Part shown: piece by piece, positions 2,352 to 23,881 of the stretch
Numbering within the stretch: position 1 is the first letter of the stretch
Layout of the letters: each line of letters starts with the position of its first letter
NCBI GenBank assembly: GCA_027623995.1
Contig: JAQBUF010000035.1
Location: forward strand, 1 to 35,240
Reading direction: 5' to 3'
DNA from: Nitrospirota bacterium
Lineage (GTDB): Bacteria; Nitrospirota; Nitrospiria; Nitrospirales; UBA8639
DNA: 35,240 bases
Program-made: the position numbers and the translations under genes
The notes under the pieces: generated by a model
Told to the model about the DNA's origin: nothing
Database searches by the model: none
Seen by the model: only the letters and a program-made list of their open reading frames with translations

Positions 2352-2431
2352 CAGGCGCGAAATATGGTGCCCAGTCAGGACTGGGTTCACTTTTAAAGTC
2401 TGGAGATACAGATTAGCTCTTTTCATATCTA

Positions 2432-3106
2432 ATTGTTCGGCGTAATTATGACCGAATACATGCTGAAGCCAGAACCTGAATCTTTATTGCCTCCAAGTGT
2501 CACAGAGCCAGCGGAAAAAACCTGCTGATACATCTGGAAGGTCGAATCCGTCGTACTCAAGACTTCCCCTGTTGGAGTCCAGGTCGTGAGCCAATTGGGT
2601 TTAGTGATAATGCGTTGGTCATGGGCTACTGAGACCGTCACCGGTTGATTCACCTCGAAACTGAAGAAACTGTTTCCTTGCGAATTCTTATCCGCATTGG
2701 CGGTCTGAATGAAGGTGGCACCAACCAATCCCGCTGGTACGGCTGTGTAGGTGTAGGTGCGGTCGATATACACTATGGGCCCCACACCCAGCCCATCCGG
2801 AAACACTTGATACGTGCGCCCACTGCCTGTCGCCACATTGGTAATAGCCAGAGGTCCACTCCCGCCTTCTGCTCCAAAGGTCGCCGTCACCATCCGCGCT
2901 TGATTCATCGTGAGAACACAGCCTCCTGCCCCGCTGCACCCTGCGCCACTCCAGCCGGTAAACACTGAGCCCGGTTCCGCACTGGCCTGTAACGTCACAC
3001 TGGTATTGTAGTCGTAGTCAGCGATGCAGTCGGTCGTACATGTGAGGAGGTTCCCATCGGTCACGGTCCCGCTCCCCGTCCCTGCCAGGGTCACGGTCAA
3101 GGTCTG
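2432..3106 (-). repeat. Duplicated subtilase module, copy 2 (Cys repeat plus beta-rich domain)
   Basis: This segment encodes one TGWSGAGCSG repeat followed by a beta-rich domain of about 140 residues. The domain contains SGRTYQV, YIDR, FIQTANADK, FFSFEVNQPVTV and HDQRI. The same order and many of the same residues recur at 4760-5428. Nucleotide identity is also visible, for example around 2830-2870 against 5160-5200. Confidence 0.75.
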
Positions 3107-4759
3107 TACGCCTTCAAACGTTGCCGTTACATTCTGGGCTTGGTCCATCGTCACGAGACAGTCGCCGGTCCCACTGCACCCCGCCCCACTCCAGCCCGTA
3201 AACACCAAGCCGGGATCCGCCGTCGCATGGAGGGTCACACTACTGTTGAGAGGATACGTAGCGCTACAGCTCGTAGAACAGCTCAGCGGCCCGTTATCCG
3301 TCACCGTGCCACTACCCGATCCCACGACGGTGACCGTCAGGGCCGGATCGCCGGGGACCATCTGATACGTGACGGAGAGCTGTGGACGCTGCGCCAGTTT
3401 GTTCGCTTCGGAGCTGCGAACAAGCACGGGGCTACTCCCGGTTGGGCGAAAGATCCAGCCGCGATTGGCCGTGGGATTATTCGTCCACGCGCTTAGGCTA
3501 CTCCTGACATCCACCAGCAGGGGCCCGACCGGTACGGTGCCCCCCACCGCACTGAGCAGCGGCCCAAGATCCTCGGCTTGAACTCCTGGCTGGCTCCCCA
3601 AACTATTAAACGTCTCGGCTTCCGTCCAGTCCACCGCCGCTTCATAGATCTCCGCAGCTAGCCCATCATCATACACTTCGAGCGTGAGGGTCGCCGAGGT
3701 AATCGTGGCCCCGATCGGGACTTGGTCGGCTCCGCCTCCAAACACATTGTCAAACCGGATCAAGACTGACTTCTCGCCACTACTCGTCCAGGTGAGAAAC
3801 GAGACATCTCCCTGGGAGGCGTCCGGGGCGCTCCCGCGAATAAAGGCATCCTGGGTCCCAGTATAGCCATTCTCGCCCTCACGAAAGGTCACGGTGCCGG
3901 TGGAGGGGGGCGGAGGCGGGACCTCAGTGGTAAAGGTAACCGTATTATCTGTACTCGTCGAGGCACTGTTGGCATTGCCCACACTATCGGTGGCCACGCC
4001 AGCGGCCAACGAGGCCGTGACCGTGCCATCGGTGGCCATGCCACTGACGGCCACGTTGTAGGTGAGCCCACTGCCGGTCACCGTCGCCGTGGTCGCACCT
4101 GCCGCGCCACCCAGCGTGACATCACCAGTGGCGAAATCGGTGACTATTTCACTAAAGACCACAGTTAAATTGATCGAGGACGTGTTCGTGGGATCGGCCT
4201 GGCCGGCGGCTTGATTGATGGTCACCGTCGGGCCCGTGGTATCGGTGGCAAACGTTGCGGTCACGGTCTCGGCTTGGAGAAGCGTGACGAGACATGGACC
4301 GGTGCCACTGCATCCCGCACCAGTCCACCCGGTAAATTCTATCGTTGGATTCGGGACAGCGGTCAGCATGACGGTCGTGCCCTGACCATAGCTATCTTGG
4401 CATGTGGTGGGACAATGAATGCTGCCGAGATCACTGGTCACCGTCCCATTGCCTGGGCCGGCCAGTTGTACTGTCAAGATATGTTCGAGCTCAAAGGTGG
4501 CGGTCACTAAGTGGGCTTGGTTCATCATCACCACACACGACAGGAGGCCACTACAGCCCGCGCCACTCCAGCCGGTAAAGATGGTCCCCGCTGGGGCGCC
4601 GGCATCCAATGTGACCACCGTTTGATCGGGATAGGTGTCCCCACAATTGCTGGCGGGACAATCGATGGTGCCCACATCACTGGTGACTTGCCCAAGCCCG
4701 CTGCCGCTGCCGGCCATCGTGACCGTGAGACTATAAGACGGGGGCGGTGGTGGTGGGCC

Positions 4760-5428
4760 GTTGGAGACGACGGCGATGGTATACATGCTTTTGCCCGTGG
4801 CAGTTTCGTGATTGCCTCCCAGAACGACGGGACCTACGGGAAAGGTTTGTGTATAGACCGTAAAGGTCGTATCCGAACTCACCCAAGTCTCCCCACTGAG
4901 GACAAAAGCGGATACCCAGACGGGCGTGTCTGTAATCCGTTGGTCATGACCGACATACACCGTGACGGGTTGATTGACGTCAAACGAGAAGAAACTGGGG
5001 CCTTGGGAACTTTTGTCGGCATTAGCTGTTTGAATATAGGTGGCGCCCTGTAGAGACCCAGGGATCGTGGAATAGGTAAAGCTTCGATCAATATACACGG
5101 TGGCGCCGATTTGCAAGCCATCGGGGATGACTTGATAGGTGCGCCCACTGCCTGTCGTCAGATTGGTAATAGCCAGAGGTCCACTGCCACCTTCTGGTCC
5201 AAAGGTCGCAGTCACCGTCCGCGCTTGATCCATCGCCAGAACACAGTCGCCTGACCCACTGCATCCCGCGCCACTCCAACCAGTAAACACAGAACCCGTA
5301 TCCGCACTGGCTTGTAACGTCACACTGATGTTGTAATCAAAAAACGCTAGACAATTCGCCACACAGGTGACGCTATCATTGTCGGTCACACTGCCTGTTC
5401 CGGTTCCCCCAAAAATAACGGACAGTGC
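4760..5428 (-). repeat. Duplicated subtilase module, copy 1 (Cys repeat plus beta-rich domain)
   Basis: This segment encodes a TGWSGAGCSG repeat followed by the beta-rich domain with SGRTYQV, YIDRSFTY, IQTANADK, FFSFDVNQPVTV and HDQRI. It is the partner of the module at 2432-3106 and lies internally rather than at the C-terminus. The two copies have drifted at many third positions and several residues, so the duplication is not recent. Confidence 0.75.
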
Positions 5429-6271
5429 TTGAGAACCCTGAAAGGTCGCAGTCACTGTCTGAAGCTGGTTCATAGTTACGACGCATGTTCCAATTCCGCT
5501 ACAGCCAGCCCCATTCCACCCTGTAAACTCATAACCGCTATCGGCGGACGCACTTAATGTCACGACGGTATTCAAATCGTAACTGTGGCTGCAGACGACA
5601 GGACAATTAATCGATCCCACATTACTCACCACTGATCCAGTGCCATTGCCACCAAAAGTGACTGTCAATTCTCGTTGAACCGTTGGATTCACACTTTGCA
5701 CAGCAGCAAAGGCATCCAGCAATCCATGGCCTGAATCCTGATCTACTCCTGGGGCTTCAATATCAAGGGCAGTCGATTCCAATGCCGTACGAATCTGTGC
5801 GTTACTTAATGAAAGGTTGGCTGACTTGACTAAGGCCGCAATCGCCGCCGCATGTGGGGCGGCGGCAGAAGTCCCAAAAAACGGATTAAATCCTGGGGTT
5901 GACGTGCTTACGCCATCGGCAGCGGCAATATCAGGTTTTTGCCTGACGAGCCCACCTGAGGCACTGAGATTCCCTGGAGTGACCTCGCTCCCATCAGCAT
6001 GATAGAAAATTCGACGAGGTCCATCGGAACTAAAGGTTTCCACCGGGTTGCTGGCCCCGCCGATAAAGTCGCCCCCGCCAGCTGTGGCAACGTTGACCGC
6101 GGCGACACCAAAAGCCTCGGCGGCGGCGGCATGTCCTAACGTTTGCCCATTTGTGGCAATATCTAATTCGCCTCGATGAGTATTGAGGTGCAAATACCTG
6201 TCCTGGGCACCATTGTTTCTCACCACCATTAATCTCGTATTCAAATGATTAATGAGTCGGGAATCAATAAA

Positions 6272-12508: not shown

Positions 12509-12757
12509 CTAAGAAGAATGGATAAACCTTCGGGGTTCGGTGAAAAGGGAACAGAGAGTCGCATTGAAGAGGGGCTTTAAAGGAATGAGGTGAGGGTGTT
12601 TACAGGAAGGACATAAGCAATGTGAAACTGATCCACCAGGAGCAATTCTTCCAATGGATTTCACGATAGAAACCACTCCTGCGAGGACGCCACAATCTGG
12701 AAATCCAACAAAACCACAGTTGGGACACACGCACCGAATTTCTTGATCCCAACCCAT
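12509..12757 (-). CDS. Small zinc-ribbon-like protein
   Basis: About 82 residues from ATG 12757; a GTG at 12799 would add 14 residues, and neither start has a strong ribosome-binding site. Two Cys knuckles are visible: CVCPNC near residues 9-14, and CLCPSCKHPH about 40 residues later. An extra Cys is in FPDCG. These could bind one zinc ion. It lies just downstream of the sigma factor on the same strand, so it could be cotranscribed with it. I do not recognise the family, and it could be a spurious ORF. Confidence 0.4.
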   Translation of the reverse strand: MGWDQEIRCVCPNCGFVGFPDCGVLAGVVSIVKSIGRIAPGGSVSHCLCPSCKHPHLIPLKPLFNATLCSLFTEPRRFIHSS

Positions 12758-12845
12758 ATTCACCAAGATACTTAGAAGATTAGACCGTACTAGCGCCACG
12801 GAATCAGAATGCCCACATTCCCACCCGTACTCTCAAGAGCTTGAG

Positions 12846-13691
12846 CTATGTGGTTTCGGCATCCTGAAGATCTGTTCCAAGTGTCAACAAGGCTTCGCGC
12901 AATCGAATTAATGCATCACCATGGACTCGGCAAATTCCTGATTCGGTGAGCCCATGGGTTTCGCCAATGGCTTTCATCGTCATCCCTGAAAAGTAGTACT
13001 GCGTAATAATGGCTTGTTGGCGCTCGGGCAGTAGAGCAATGGCAGACTGGAGCACATCCCCCACCTGATTCGAAATACAGGCAGCCAGTGGATCCACTTG
13101 ATCTTTGGCGGGCAGCATATCTTTGAGTGTGCCCCCTTCGTCCTCTTCTCCAACCCATTCGTCGAGACTCAATACCGTGGCTTCCTTCATGAGGGACGCC
13201 CCCATATCTTCGGGCGCAATACCTAACATTTCGGCGATTTCATCTTGTGTCGGAGGCCGGCCAACCGTCCGCACAAATTCCGCCGAGGCCTGTTGATATT
13301 TTTCAATTCTGGCGCGAACAGATCGAGGCACCCAATCCATGGCTCGGATTTCATCAAGCATTGCGCCTCGAATACGGTATTCAGCAAAGGTACGAAATTT
13401 GATATCACGTGACGGATCATAACGGGACATCGCCGATAGGAGCCCCATGACCCCTGCACTCGTGAGGTCTTCCACATCAAGGGCCGCTGGATTACGAAGA
13501 ACGAGTTCTGTTGCTATGCGACGAACGATAGGAAGAAAGTCTCGAACAAGTTGATCCGGGTCCTTGCCTGCAAAGGCGGGATCAATTGTTCTCTCCTGCC
13601 CAGGAGAAGGGCTGCTTTCAGCCATAGTTGGCATGGCTGGCTTGGCTCGTAATCCCTTTAGTTTTAACCCACCCACTCGATGTCGATACAT
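12846..13691 (-). CDS. fliA: RNA polymerase sigma factor, FliA/WhiG (sigma-28) type
   Basis: Group 3 sigma factor of 281 residues that directs RNA polymerase to its own promoter set, classically late flagellar and chemotaxis genes. Region 2 contains DLTSAGVMGLLSAMSRYD and FRTFAEYRIRGAMLDEIRAMDWVPRSVR, a hallmark of the FliA/WhiG group. Region 3 carries GRPPTQDEIAEMLG. Region 4 carries ALLPERQQAIITQYYF and an HTH with LTESGICRVHGDALIRLR. The start is ATG 13691, behind AAGGA; the frame is open further upstream, but through the terminator. A riboswitch-like leader precedes it. No flagellar genes are visible in the window, so its regulon is inferred. Confidence 0.88.
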   Translation of the reverse strand: MYRHRVGGLKLKGLRAKPAMPTMAESSPSPGQERTIDPAFAGKDPDQLVRDFLPIVRRIATELVLRNPAALDVEDLTSAGVMGLLSAMSRYDPSRDIKFRTFAEYRIRGAMLDEIRAMDWVPRSVRARIEKYQQASAEFVRTVGRPPTQDEIAEMLGIAPEDMGASLMKEATVLSLDEWVGEEDEGGTLKDMLPAKDQVDPLAACISNQVGDVLQSAIALLPERQQAIITQYYFSGMTMKAIGETHGLTESGICRVHGDALIRLREALLTLGTDLQDAETT

Positions 13692-13716
13692 CTTGGTTTG
13701 TCCTTGTGAAATCGAT

Positions 13717-13750
13717 AAAAAAATGCCCACTTCTCAAACGAGAATGGGCA
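13717..13750 (-). terminator. Intrinsic terminator in the leader of the sigma factor gene
   Basis: On the minus strand TGCCCATTCTC, loop GTTT, GAGAAGTGGGCA forms a stem of about 11 pairs with one bulge, followed directly by seven T residues. It ends 26 bases before the sigma factor ATG and just before its AAGGA site. No gene lies immediately upstream in this direction, so its likely role is attenuation of this leader. Confidence 0.8.
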
Positions 13751-13774
13751 CACATCAAAACCAATTCGAGACTG

Positions 13775-13885
13775 TTCCAGTTCAGCAACCAGACGAACCC
13801 TTGGATGTTAAGCACCCAAACTCAGGTCTCTCGGCTTTGCGCCCTACCCTCTCGAGCAGTTTGCTATTGTCACCTGTGCTCTCAA
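13775..13885 (-). ncRNA. Candidate cyclic-di-GMP-I (GEMM) riboswitch aptamer
   Basis: On the minus strand the leader reads AGCAAAC, then hairpin CTGCTC-GAGA-GGGTAG (13844-13859) closed by a GNRA tetraloop, then GGCGCAAAGCC (13833-13843). The last matches the GEMM core GACGCAAAGCC at 10 of 11 positions. A second arm follows: AGAC (13826-13829) pairs with GTCT (13791-13794) and encloses TTGGGTG-CTTAA-CATCCAA (13801-13819). It closes with CTGGTTGCTGAA, like the 3' consensus GGTTGCCGA. The order of core motif, GNRA hairpin and second hairpin is that of class I c-di-GMP aptamers. The intrinsic terminator and sigma factor gene lie directly downstream. Whether the ligand is c-di-GMP or cGAMP cannot be told by eye. 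Confidence 0.72.
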
Positions 13886-18849: not shown

Positions 18850-20091
18850 TTAACTCTTGAGGAGAGGGACAAGATTGGAAGTCCAGGAAATGGCTTCCAA
18901 GTAGGCCGCTTTGGCGGTTTCAACTTCCACGCCGTGACACAACACCGAATCCCAGTCACCTCGCTCGTAGGCCAGCACACAATCTAACGTCATACCAAGA
19001 GAGCCTTTTTTATGAACCAAGCCCTCCTGAATATCTAATCCAAGGGGGAGCGTGGGAATGATGTCTTCCAGTGGTTGATCGAGCAACCCATCCAAGATCG
19101 AAAACAGCCCAACAGTGAAGTACTGATCAACGTCCCGAACATGATGGACCAAGGCCAATTGTTCACACATCCTCGCTCGCACAATGGCTGTCACGAACAA
19201 TTCAACTGGCTTGTCTTCGATCCGAGCCAACATCAGTAAACTGGCCCAGGTCCGAAGCCGATCCGTCCCAACCATATAGACCGCTTGATCTATTGAATCA
19301 ATTTGTTTCGGCATTTCAAAGAACGCGGAATTGATATACCGGAGCACCTGTGCCCCAAGAGAAAAATCTTCTTGAATAATCCGTTCTAATTGTGAAATTT
19401 CAATGGTTGGGTTTTGAAGCTGGGTGAGCAGTGCAAGAATCGCCATCCGATTCACTGGCATAGGTTTTGCTGAGATCACATTCGGCTTACAAAAAAAGTA
19501 TCCCTGAAAATAATCAAATCCCAAATCTCGACAAAATTCAAATTCTTCGTGGGTTTCCACTTTCTCCGCGAGTAACTTTACGGGATATTGGCGAAGGATT
19601 TTCACGTGTTCAGCCACAGTCTCACGATCAAGCTCCAAGACATCCACCTTAATAATATCCGCAATCTCAACCAAGGGCTTCAGGCTTTCATGATAGACAA
19701 AATCATCCAATGCGATCCGATATCCGAGCTTGGACAAGCGCTGCAGGGCGTCCATCAATTCTTGATCGACACCCATATTTTCCAAGACTTCGAGTACCAC
19801 CCGATCTTTAGGAAGGGCCACACAGTAATTTCCAAGCACGAAATCCCGCGTTAAATTAATAAACGCCAAATGATGATCGACAATATGATCGAGCCCAATC
19901 TCTACAAAGGTATTGAGCATGACTTGGGCAGTGGCCGCATCTCCATCGGTAAAAGAAGCGCGATTCACTTCATTATTTCTAAACAATAATTCATACGCAA
20001 ACACATCGATGGAACGCCCATAGATCGGCTGACGCCCCACAAATGCCACATTTGAATCAACGGCTTTACTTGACGCCGGAACCTCAATCAT
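18850..20091 (-). CDS. EAL-HDOD signalling protein (YuxH/CdgJ type)
   Basis: A 413-residue cytoplasmic protein with an EAL domain (about 15-203) fused to an HDOD domain (about 205-400). In the EAL part the signature is YELLFR (Glu34) rather than EALLR. FINLTRDF, ALDDF (Asp129-Asp130), IIKVD (Lys148), AEKVET (Glu176) and FQGYFFCKP remain. In this family the EAL domain is often catalytically weak or inactive and serves in binding. The HDOD part contains IIQEDFSLGAQVLRYINSA and YMVGTDRLRTWASLLML. Known relatives affect motility and c-di-GMP signalling. The start is ATG 20091 behind GGGAG. It lies close to two HD-GYP genes. Confidence 0.88.
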   Translation of the reverse strand: MIEVPASSKAVDSNVAFVGRQPIYGRSIDVFAYELLFRNNEVNRASFTDGDAATAQVMLNTFVEIGLDHIVDHHLAFINLTRDFVLGNYCVALPKDRVVLEVLENMGVDQELMDALQRLSKLGYRIALDDFVYHESLKPLVEIADIIKVDVLELDRETVAEHVKILRQYPVKLLAEKVETHEEFEFCRDLGFDYFQGYFFCKPNVISAKPMPVNRMAILALLTQLQNPTIEISQLERIIQEDFSLGAQVLRYINSAFFEMPKQIDSIDQAVYMVGTDRLRTWASLLMLARIEDKPVELFVTAIVRARMCEQLALVHHVRDVDQYFTVGLFSILDGLLDQPLEDIIPTLPLGLDIQEGLVHKKGSLGMTLDCVLAYERGDWDSVLCHGVEVETAKAAYLEAISWTSNLVPLLKS

Positions 20092-20609: not shown

Positions 20610-21980
20610 TTATGACCGACCGGCCAACAAATAGTGTTGAACGTGCTTAGGCAGGTGTTGGGGGCGTATACTATGGACAATAGCAATTTCATCTTTGGCT
20701 AAATCAACAACTCTGGCTTCTTGTCGTGGGACATTGGGGGTACAGATCATAACGCAGGGCTTGGTTCGTTCTTCAGTACTCACCCCAGTGACTAACCCTA
20801 CAGCTCCATTCGTCAGCTCCACAAAACTTCCCGGCGGGTATACACCCAAAGCCCGAACCATATAGACCACCACTTCTTCCGATAACTCGGCATTCTCACT
20901 CACTTGCTCAGCCGCCACCGCTTCTTCCTTTGCAGAAGAATCCTCAACGGATTTCGACTCAACCAGACCCTCATTCATCAAATTATTGATGGTATCGCTT
21001 ACGGCCATTAATTTATCCACGATATAATGATCGTACAGATAGGACAGAGCCTCCGCTGGCGTTAAGTTTTTAGAATGATCAGCTTGGTGACACAAATGAT
21101 CGTATTCATCAGCCGCCATGAGGATTTTGGCGAAAAATGAAATGTCATCGCCTTGTAATCCCAAGGGAAATCCTGAACCATCTAATCGCTCATGATGCTG
21201 GTGGACCGCGAGAACCGCCGCTTCCGGAATGGAAGGAAATCGTTCGAGCACTCCATGTCCTAGAGTCGGATGCTTGACCCATTCCTGGTGTTCCATTTTG
21301 GTGAGACCAAAATGCTTGTCCCGAAGCATAGTGGGAAAATTTTGTTTCCCAACGTCATGCAACAGTCCCGCCAAACCCAAGGCATATAAATCAGTCTCAT
21401 CCAATTGATACTCTTTCCCAACCAGGACGGAAACGATACATACATTTAAGGCATGCGCTAAAAATGGGTCCCCAGCCTCGGAAGACGTCATGATATCTAT
21501 GATAGCCATGGATGTCCCGGGACTGTTTAGTGAATGGATAAGGGTGGAGACTACTTGATCTGCTGACTTGATGCCAGCGGCATGGCCATCACTAATTCGT
21601 TTTATGGCAATTTTTGTTTGAGCGATCGCCTGCTGATAGAGATAGGAAGCTTTTTGCAATTCAGCGGTATGGTCCTCGCAGGCTTGAATCTGCTCCTTGC
21701 GGAGTTCTTCTTCCTGACGTTCCAGTTCTTCTTGGTTTGGCCCCCCGTTAATTGATTCTGGAATTTCTGCAACTGTCTCAACCGTGACCACTTCCTCGGG
21801 ATCAGACAACTCGGGGTCATAAAACAGCGTGACCTTTCGCATGCCTTTAATCGTGGCAATTTCCTTCTTGGATGTAACCTTAAATTTATTTTTCGCAAAC
21901 GGATGGTTCCACCAGGAACATTCCAGTTTAATGTATAATCCAATTCGCAAATCGCCAATTTTAAGTGGAATAAATGCCAT
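20610..21980 (-). CDS. HD-GYP domain protein with N-terminal DUF3391
   Basis: Predicted c-di-GMP phosphodiesterase of 456 residues, cytoplasmic. Residues 1-65 match DUF3391 (IGDLRIGLYIKLECSWWNHPF). A charged helical linker covers about 75-130. HD-GYP covers about 155-310, with LLHDVGK (His208-Asp209), HPTLGHGVLE (His237), HHERLDGSGFP (262-272) and AADEYD (289-294). GYP is GFP here, which many family members tolerate. An acidic low-complexity insert (about 340-372) precedes a C-terminal PPGSFVELTNGAVGLV segment. The start is ATG 21980, with a poor ribosome-binding site. A paralogue is transcribed divergently from 22490. Confidence 0.9.
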   Translation of the reverse strand: MAFIPLKIGDLRIGLYIKLECSWWNHPFAKNKFKVTSKKEIATIKGMRKVTLFYDPELSDPEEVVTVETVAEIPESINGGPNQEELERQEEELRKEQIQACEDHTAELQKASYLYQQAIAQTKIAIKRISDGHAAGIKSADQVVSTLIHSLNSPGTSMAIIDIMTSSEAGDPFLAHALNVCIVSVLVGKEYQLDETDLYALGLAGLLHDVGKQNFPTMLRDKHFGLTKMEHQEWVKHPTLGHGVLERFPSIPEAAVLAVHQHHERLDGSGFPLGLQGDDISFFAKILMAADEYDHLCHQADHSKNLTPAEALSYLYDHYIVDKLMAVSDTINNLMNEGLVESKSVEDSSAKEEAVAAEQVSENAELSEEVVVYMVRALGVYPPGSFVELTNGAVGLVTGVSTEERTKPCVMICTPNVPRQEARVVDLAKDEIAIVHSIRPQHLPKHVQHYLLAGRS

Positions 21981-22489
21981 AGATCAGAATCCCGTATTCG
22001 CTTCGATTTTTTTCACTTTTCAAATCAACTTCAAGCCTGCATTCAACAATTTGTCCCTAACCCTTTTCTTTCTCTGGCTTCATTGCTATGACTTCCTGCC
22101 TGTCATTGCACGCTGTAAGGGTTTATTCGGATATAATTTTCAAAACTTCAGCGTTTTCATTCCTTCTTTCCACTTGCACCTTTCATTTTCAAGAGACGGC
22201 TTGGACCACGACTTAGAAGAATAACCCCTCCGATTTCGATGAATTCCAGGCAAGACGCTCCACCTCCAAAAAAACTCACACGGCCCAGCATTTAAGGTCA
22301 TGCACTAACACCAAAGTTATTCAATGGAATAAAACCACAAATAAATAAAAGGAACCTGGCACGGATATTCAAACAAGAACCCGATTCTCCTTCAACATCA
22401 CAGGGTTTAGATCCCTAGGGGATAACCGAAAGGAATGAATAAGACTGCATGTGTATTTTCATCCATTCCATTTTGGAGTCCTAACCATC
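21981..22489. other. Divergent intergenic region between two HD-GYP genes
   Basis: No gene is seen in about 500 bases. It must carry the promoters of both HD-GYP genes. TATAAT occurs at 22134-22139, but the best -35 on the plus strand is 20 bases away. AT-rich stretches and pyrimidine runs are present, with no clear operator or riboswitch core. Confidence 0.45.
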
Positions 22490-23881
22490 GTGTCGTATCA
22501 ACGACTTGAAAATCTCGACGAACTCCGAGTGGGGTTACATGTCAAACTGGAATGCTCCTGGTGGGCGCATCCCTTTGCGACCAGCCAATTTAAAATCGCC
22601 TCACAAAAAGATATTGAGATTATCCGAGGCATCAGGAAGCTCAAGCTCTACTATGACCCAAGGCTTTCTGATCCTTTAACCAAACCTCTAGAGGAACCCG
22701 AAGAACCTGAAATACTTGAGTTAGAAGAGACAATCTCGGAGGAAGGGTTCTCCGATGATGATTCCCTTTTACTACTTCAAGATGAAGAAGAAGTCCTTGA
22801 CGAAGAGCCCATCCAACTGATTGATGCCCCTGATCCAGAGGAAATTAAAAAAAATCGAAAACGGGTCTATCAAGATCGAAAAACACATTTGAAAAAAGTT
22901 GAAGATGCCTATTGGAAGGTGCTGGGGAAAAGTAAGGATATCTTTAAACGAATCGGAACCGGCAACCATGCCGCAGTGAAAAATGCCGCTCAATTGGTTA
23001 ACAATGTGACATCCGTCCTCAAGCATGAACAAGCCACCATGACCCTGATGGATATTGTCAGTTCCACAGGCATGGCGGAAGGACTCTCCTCCCATGCCCT
23101 CAACGTCTGCATTATGTCATCGATTATTGGCCGGGAAATGGGATTGAGCCCAGAAGAACTGCACATGCTAGGCCTTGGGGCATTATTTCATGACATGGGC
23201 AAACGCCTGCTGCCCATGAAAGTCAAATTTCATTCAACCGGCATTACCATGGAACCTGACCCTGAATCCATTAAGCTCCACCCTGAAAAAGGGAAAGAAT
23301 TGATGGCCAAATTTAAAGACTTTCCACGACAAAGCCTTGAGGCCATCATTCAACATCATGAACGGCTCGATGGGTCTGTATATCCCGAAGGATTATCCAA
23401 TGAGCAAATTTCACTATTTGCTCAAATTGTGATGGTCGCGGATGAATACGATGAGCTATGTAACGCAGCGGAGATGGACAAGAGCCTGACTCCCCACGAA
23501 GCCCTAGCTCAACTGTATCGACATATTAATGCCAAACACCAGAGATTCTCTAAACAAGTCATCCTGACCCTCATACAAACAATGACCGTGTTTCCACCAG
23601 GCACGTTGGTTGAATTGTCTGATGGAACCATCGGACAAGTGATTAGCGTGAATTTACAAAATCCAACCCGCCCCCTCTTACTCTCTTCTCATTTTGAAGG
23701 ATCGAGACAAGAAGCCCTGATGGTGGACCTGGTAGAAGAAGTACATCTCAGCATTGCCAGAAGTCTCCGCCCGAGTGAAGTGCCGCCTAAAATCTTAGAA
23801 TTTTTGAGTCCTCGTCGAATGAGCATTTTCGTCCATCAAGAGGAAAATGTCCCTCGCTTTGCAGGAAAGATGTCGACGTAA
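22490..23881 (+). CDS. HD-GYP domain protein with N-terminal DUF3391, paralogue
   Basis: A 463-residue protein from GTG 22490, with GGAG 12 bases before it. That start aligns its N-terminus with the neighbouring paralogue; the frame is open 13 codons further upstream. DUF3391 (ENLDELRVGLHVKLECSWW) is followed by a very acidic stretch of about 50 residues (EEPEEPEILELEE..., DEEEVLDEEP), then HD-GYP with LFHDMGK (His234-Asp235) and HHERLDGSVYP (289-299). The usual GxGYP is GSVYP, so the second Gly is Val. It ends with PPGTLVELSDGTIGQV like its partner. Metal-binding His and Asp residues seem kept. Activity is uncertain because of the altered GYP motif. Confidence 0.87.
   Translation: MSYQRLENLDELRVGLHVKLECSWWAHPFATSQFKIASQKDIEIIRGIRKLKLYYDPRLSDPLTKPLEEPEEPEILELEETISEEGFSDDDSLLLLQDEEEVLDEEPIQLIDAPDPEEIKKNRKRVYQDRKTHLKKVEDAYWKVLGKSKDIFKRIGTGNHAAVKNAAQLVNNVTSVLKHEQATMTLMDIVSSTGMAEGLSSHALNVCIMSSIIGREMGLSPEELHMLGLGALFHDMGKRLLPMKVKFHSTGITMEPDPESIKLHPEKGKELMAKFKDFPRQSLEAIIQHHERLDGSVYPEGLSNEQISLFAQIVMVADEYDELCNAAEMDKSLTPHEALAQLYRHINAKHQRFSKQVILTLIQTMTVFPPGTLVELSDGTIGQVISVNLQNPTRPLLLSSHFEGSRQEALMVDLVEEVHLSIARSLRPSEVPPKILEFLSPRRMSIFVHQEENVPRFAGKMST

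Follow-up and report, generated by a model that had tools for sequence, protein, structure and literature searches.

A c-di-GMP-I aptamer and an intrinsic terminator precede a FliA/WhiG-family sigma factor gene

The minus strand of the window, by which we mean the whole 35,240-nucleotide stretch of Nitrospirota DNA analyzed here, encodes a sigma factor of the FliA/WhiG family preceded by a leader that carries an aptamer and an intrinsic terminator (Table 1). A preliminary description of this DNA had read a GEMM-I-like core, two hairpins and a closing segment in the leader and had proposed a comparison with the Rfam family RF01051 (c-di-GMP-I). Direct reading recovered all of these elements, and a cmscan search of the whole window matched RF01051 over the full length of the model (E = 1.6e-6, gathering score 35), the sole other Rfam match in the window being a tRNA. 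The helix P1b with its GNRA loop, the conserved CGCAAAGCC core, the second arm and the closing segment are those of the family, and on this sequence evidence we regard the window RNA as a confirmed member of the c-di-GMP-I riboswitch class, that is, of a known class in a new setting. The genome to which the window belongs (3.1 Mb, 99.7% complete) harbors three such riboswitches, and relatives of the same family harbor up to nine per genome.

Table 1. Features of the sigma factor gene and its leader (Vc2 residue names are inferred by counting against Vc2).
Feature	Positions	Strand	Basis and remarks
FliA/WhiG-family sigma factor, 281 aa, ATG start at 13691	12846-13691	-	Pfam sigma-70 regions 2, 3 and 4; TIGR02479
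AAGGA, likely ribosome-binding site of the sigma gene	13701-13705	-	Direct reading
Intrinsic terminator	13717-13751	-	5' arm 13751-13740, loop 13739-13736, 3' arm 13735-13723, T run 13723-13717; hairpin about -16 kcal/mol
TGTGCCC, predicted antiterminator 3' strand	13746-13752	-	Pairing and folding; overlaps the terminator 5' arm
c-di-GMP-I (GEMM-I) aptamer	13781-13875	-	Rfam RF01051, 47.9 bits
Closing segment GGTTGCTGA	13782-13790	-	Direct reading
U replacing the usual C after C92	13784	-	Leader alignment
C92, kept	13785	-	Leader alignment
Second aptamer hairpin, length variable among relatives	13800-13820	-	Folding and leader alignment
Aptamer core GGGCGCAAAGCC	13833-13844	-	Direct reading
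Core GGGCGCA, predicted antiterminator 5' strand	13838-13844	-	Pairs with 13752-13746 in orthologous leaders
Helix P1b, CTGCTC-GAGA-GGGTAG	13844-13859	-	Direct reading; GAGA is the GNRA tetraloop
A at the Vc2 G20 position (ligand-specificity residue)	13865	-	Leader alignment
U next upstream of the A20 position	13866	-	Leader alignment

The terminator with seven T that had been placed ahead of the ribosome-binding site of the sigma gene was found as described, with the hairpin and T run followed by the AAGGA sequence and the start codon. A consensus terminator scan did not return this hairpin near the leader, which the bulge in its stem probably explains, and a consensus scan for sigma70 promoters near the leader found none. 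The mechanically predicted sigma ORF extends to a GTG at 13730, within the terminator. No sigma28 site was found ahead of the sigma leaders themselves (5-8 mismatches). The sigma leaders of genus g9 (L043-L063) share an element, GAGG(T)-N9-TAnnATAA, that lies some 16-35 nt before the aptamer and fits the sigma70 and sigma28 consensus sequences both poorly.

The sigma protein scores 213.3 bits against the NCBIfam model TIGR02479 (FliA/WhiG, cut-off 189.6) and 191.8 against the stricter FliA model NF005413, below its cut-off of 201. Searches of the window's genome for flagellin and FlhA found neither, so that the earlier label of a FliA-type, flagellar-type sigma factor holds for the family and ancestry of the protein but not for its function here. 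No close FliA-type sigma factor other than the riboswitch-controlled one was found in this genome, and flagellin occurs in some 30 relatives of the family. In genomes of genus g4 of family f1 (G005, G012, G015 and others), c-di-GMP-I riboswitches, a close FliA-type sigma factor and flagellin are all absent together.

No family match was obtained for a 96-aa ORF (12509-12799) that follows the sigma gene; its conservation is only weak, and we did not accept it as an established anti-sigma factor. Elsewhere in the window, at 5-10 kb from the sigma gene, an HDOD+EAL protein and two DUF3391+HD_5 (HD-GYP-like) proteins (18850-20091 and 20610-21980 on the minus strand, 22451-23881 on the plus strand) likely act in c-di-GMP signaling or turnover. 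A 1271-aa protein with a subtilase domain and six InlB-type repeats (2429-6244, minus strand) is probably secreted.

The riboswitch leader is conserved in one clade of sigma factors

We searched 118 relatives, which are uncultured Nitrospirales represented mostly by metagenome-assembled genomes (some of them labeled Nitrospinota), with the sigma protein, and found two FliA-like paralogs in most members of the family. A c-di-GMP-I aptamer lies shortly upstream of the sigma ortholog in 28 of the 30 best loci, and an intrinsic terminator separates aptamer and gene in 26 of the 27 distinct leaders, no recognizable terminator being present in the remaining one (L037); this is the conservation that the preliminary description had proposed to look for in an alignment of sigma leaders. 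Across the distinct orthologous leaders the terminator helix is paired in 98.7% of cells, with two-sided changes at three of its pairs, and P1b is kept in 25 of 25 (100% of cells paired, one-sided changes only). Tandem c-di-GMP-I aptamers, about 530-560 nt apart, were observed at three loci (L018, L023 and L199), in some of which the downstream ORF encodes a TadE-like pilus protein.

On the inferred tree, the riboswitch sigma clade and the clade of FliA paralogs without riboswitch are split at 100/100 support, and a single member of the former (L101) has no detected aptamer. Neither the other FliA-like paralog nor the FliA of the neighboring family, Nitrospira proper included, has a c-di-GMP-I aptamer upstream. 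This separate clade, the score below the NF005413 cut-off and the lack of flagellin and FlhA in the genome all place the window protein outside the flagellar FliA group.

The terminator arm is complementary to the aptamer core in a conserved register

The terminator 5' arm had been proposed to be complementary to an aptamer segment read as CGAGA...GGGC. The complementarity is present, but the register is a different one, the better pairing being that of the core GGGCGCA with TGTGCCC. In 25 orthologous leaders, the core (GGRCGCA) and the arm are complementary at this fixed register in 96% of cells, whereas controls displaced by one to three columns reach 26-58%. The core GGACGC is accompanied by the arm GCGTYC in four leaders, a change from G-C to A-U on both sides that is confined to one clade and probably represents a single event. 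Compared with shuffled arms, the complementarity is significant in one representative per genus in each of four genera (P = 0.017, 0.003, 0.002 and 0.002; combined P of about 4e-7). Energies of generic core/linker duplexes were mostly unremarkable (P < 0.05 in only 4 of 26 leaders), so that the antiterminator claim rests on register and not on overall energy, and folding gave a low core/arm pairing probability in six of the 26 truncated leaders.

In the window, the core/arm duplex is extended by GAGGGT (13851-13846) with ATTCTC (13745-13740), and pairing of AAGCCGA with TTGGTTT and of GAGAC with GTCTC completes a long predicted antiterminator, whose duplex is the strongest among all orthologs in the duplex-energy test (z = -4.2). 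Folding of a transcript that ends at the terminator loop gave -48.4 kcal/mol for the antiterminator versus -40.3 kcal/mol with seven arm bases free, an advantage of about 8 kcal/mol once the transcript reaches the loop. At full length, the minimum energy of the terminator state (-56.9) lies slightly below that of the antiterminator state (-53.7). Aptamer and terminator have no bases in common and can coexist, whereas aptamer and antiterminator cannot, and this mutual exclusion, by sequence and by folding, upholds the earlier proposal that aptamer folding could be coupled to the terminator.

The leader is predicted to act as an OFF switch

In the reading that we consider probable, this leader is a riboswitch that couples a class I c-di-GMP aptamer to a platform for transcription attenuation, is dedicated to a FliA-type sigma factor and most likely operates as an OFF switch. 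As long as no ligand is bound, the newly transcribed 5' arm of the terminator (TGTGCCC with its flanks) would capture the aptamer core GGGCGCA, and the resulting antiterminator would block the terminator, allowing the sigma factor to be made. With ligand, the core would be locked in the aptamer and the terminator arm left free, and the hairpin and T run would form and stop transcription ahead of the start codon. In this scheme, we infer ligand binding by the window copy as well as the direction and strength of its response.

The predicted topology is that of Cd1 (Cdi-1-3), the OFF switch of the Clostridioides difficile flgB operon, where a class I aptamer likewise precedes an intrinsic terminator, the antiterminator combines an aptamer strand with the terminator 5' arm, and the terminator is compatible with a folded aptamer (PMC9262584, PMC6200980). 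The class I riboswitches of C. difficile are OFF switches, and the operon under one of them encodes SigD, a FliA-type sigma factor that relays the signal (PMC6200980, PMC9262584); given the shared topology, OFF would by analogy be the preferred prediction for the window. The two systems differ in setting: Cd1 stands ahead of a flagellar operon of 23 kb in a Gram-positive species, whereas the leader studied here serves a single gene, that of a stand-alone sigma paralog, in a Nitrospirales genome without flagella.

An ON switch, in which the bound aptamer would favor read-through as in Geobacter pilM (PMC8835794, PMC6456294), appears very unlikely: this aptamer fold is known to work in either direction (PMC9262584), and the slightly lower full-length energy of the terminator state makes a ligand-free terminator conceivable, but the pilM terminator uses the aptamer strand itself, while the window terminator does not overlap the aptamer. 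Moreover, the strong alternative pairing ties the terminator arm to the aptamer core, and ligand should therefore promote termination, as expected of an OFF switch.

c-di-GMP is the likelier ligand despite a substitution at the specificity position

Position 20 of the aptamer is G in nearly all related sigma leaders, including that of the sister species, and C in one (L038); the window copy is the only sigma leader with A. G20 is a selectivity factor for c-di-GMP (PMC9262584), although it is not required for membership in RF01051. The G20A change is known to move specificity toward cGAMP (PMC11352751, PMC10671752); it has been used to turn GEMM-I into a cGAMP sensor (PMC11352751), G20A structures of Vc2 exist (PMC10671752), and an A20-type change is common to the window copy and to the Geobacter GEMM-Ib cGAMP riboswitches (pilM/Gm0970 and pgcA), which belong to the same aptamer family (PMC8835794, PMC6456294). 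A second natural c-di-GMP-I aptamer with A20 was observed in an unrelated leader (L010, G020:C1:4646759-4646848).

On these grounds, the window copy could have switched to 3',3'-cGAMP while its G-bearing relatives sense c-di-GMP, a reading that we regard as unlikely in view of the enzymes encoded in the same genome. Hypr cGAMP synthases are marked by a Ser in the GGDEF domain (PMC6456294), and Geobacter pairs its GEMM-Ib riboswitches with a Hypr GGDEF enzyme (PMC8835794, PMC6456294). The window's genome contains four clear GGDEF and four EAL matches; all four GGDEF domains keep Asp at the Hypr Ser position, and no match to a SMODS/DncV-type cyclase was found in this 99.7% complete genome, so that neither type of cGAMP synthase was found alongside A20. 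Both remaining GEMM-I aptamers in this genome, moreover, retain G20. Because the GGDEF enzymes found are all canonical and a DncV-type cyclase was not detected, c-di-GMP is the likelier signal, perhaps sensed with changed affinity, even though A20 would favor cGAMP.

The substitutions may also be read as decay, the pocket changes having abolished binding and left the leader as a fixed attenuator. U19, A20 and U93 lie at or beside the pocket and depart from the orthologs, and the aptamer is the lowest-scoring of the three GEMM-I copies in a genome without detected flagellin or FlhA; nonetheless, the helices, terminator and antiterminator are intact, with an antiterminator duplex unsurpassed among orthologs, the differences from the sister species are limited to the pocket region instead of being spread, and the sigma gene is intact, all of which makes decay improbable. 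We retain a leader that would respond to c-di-GMP as the preferred reading, with a cGAMP switch and a decayed pocket as serious alternatives.

Candidate sigma28-type promoters lie upstream of most other c-di-GMP-I riboswitches

Exact FliA-like sites returned by a pattern search led us to a broader test of riboswitch upstream regions. We collected 65 upstream regions of c-di-GMP-I riboswitches, excluding the sigma leaders, grouped similar ones into 42 clusters, and scored TAAAGTTT-N11/12-GCCGATAA with at most 4 mismatches of 16, using 976 segments from the same loci as controls. A sigma28-type site is present in 25 of the 42 riboswitch clusters versus 15 of the 976 control segments (1.5%; Fisher P of about 1e-28), and 11 of these 25 sites fall within a seven-base stretch that would place the transcript start at the aptamer 5' end (P of about 1e-9, with a chance expectation of seven in 173 positions). 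The boxes read TmAAGTnT and nCCGATAm, a result that is partly circular because the sites were picked by similarity to the consensus, and correspond to the same motif as the TTAAG-N16-CCGATA of the Bdellovibrio FliA regulon (PMC3627812).

Of the riboswitches in the window's genome, C104 is preceded by a two-mismatch site, GAAGGTTT-N11-GCCGATAA, and C10 by a weak site with six mismatches, at chance level by itself, at approximately the fixed distance. TAAA-N14-16-GCCGATAA showed no excess over the reversed pattern genome-wide in six genomes, and the FliA consensus with up to 3 mismatches occurred 33 times across genome G000 versus 43 in the control; the sigma28 signal is hence visible only in riboswitch upstream regions. 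An exact E. coli-type FliA consensus, TAAAGTTT-N11-GCCGATAA, was observed on contig C67 of G000 (12763-12789; L157 1501-1527, minus strand), with no obvious ORF downstream and nothing credible in an Rfam search around the site.

The genes sampled behind the riboswitches encode fn3-type secreted proteins, Tad pilus components, response regulators, hybrid kinases and a BrxC/BrxD-like ATPase. The last of these, a BrxC/BrxD-like ATP-binding protein, follows a c-di-GMP-I riboswitch in two genomes (L193 2885-5467, and L236), a possible link of c-di-GMP to a defense-like ATPase. The riboswitch-controlled sigma factor is the sole candidate for the sigma28-type promoters in the window's genome only; ordinary FliA could drive them in flagellated relatives and also in Nitrospira, for which no FliA but the ordinary one was found. 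For the window's genome, we infer that the riboswitch-controlled sigma factor reads these promoters.

A possible two-tier c-di-GMP cascade

These observations lead us to suggest, tentatively, a two-tier cascade in which the leader riboswitch would set the level of the sigma factor and the sigma factor would transcribe, via sigma28 promoters, mRNAs that carry c-di-GMP-I riboswitches of their own, forming a feed-forward loop. The second tier is put forward as a hypothesis with good sequence support, and its mRNAs would hypothetically include those for secreted fn3 proteins, Tad pili, response regulators and the BrxC/D-like ATPase. In this genome, whose lineage lacks flagella, the ligand preference of the first-tier copy may have drifted.

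Control of a FliA/WhiG-family sigma factor by c-di-GMP has a counterpart in Streptomyces, where WhiG is governed by the anti-sigma protein RsiG, armed by c-di-GMP; the second messenger stands above the sigma factor as proposed here, but acts through a protein and not through RNA. In Bdellovibrio, FliA is a global and not merely flagellar regulator, and merRNA, an abundant c-di-GMP riboswitch RNA, belongs to the same program; as far as the available part of the source extends, it reports no riboswitch on the sigma gene and does not mark merRNA with a FliA promoter (PMC3627812). Our literature search, incomplete in coverage, found no report of c-di-GMP riboswitches in Nitrospira and none of a sigma gene whose own leader is a c-di-GMP riboswitch.

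Two features make this RNA worth following up: a leader reserved for the sigma gene, and sigma28 promoters that appear to be coupled to further c-di-GMP riboswitches. If the proposed scheme is true, relatives of the nitrite-oxidizing Nitrospira that are known mostly from metagenomes use a single RNA switch to subordinate a sigma factor to a second messenger, and a FliA-type sigma factor has a part to play where flagella are absent. A sigma28 promoter coupled to a c-di-GMP riboswitch would then constitute a network motif that senses one signal at two levels, the synthesis of the sigma factor and each of its target mRNAs.
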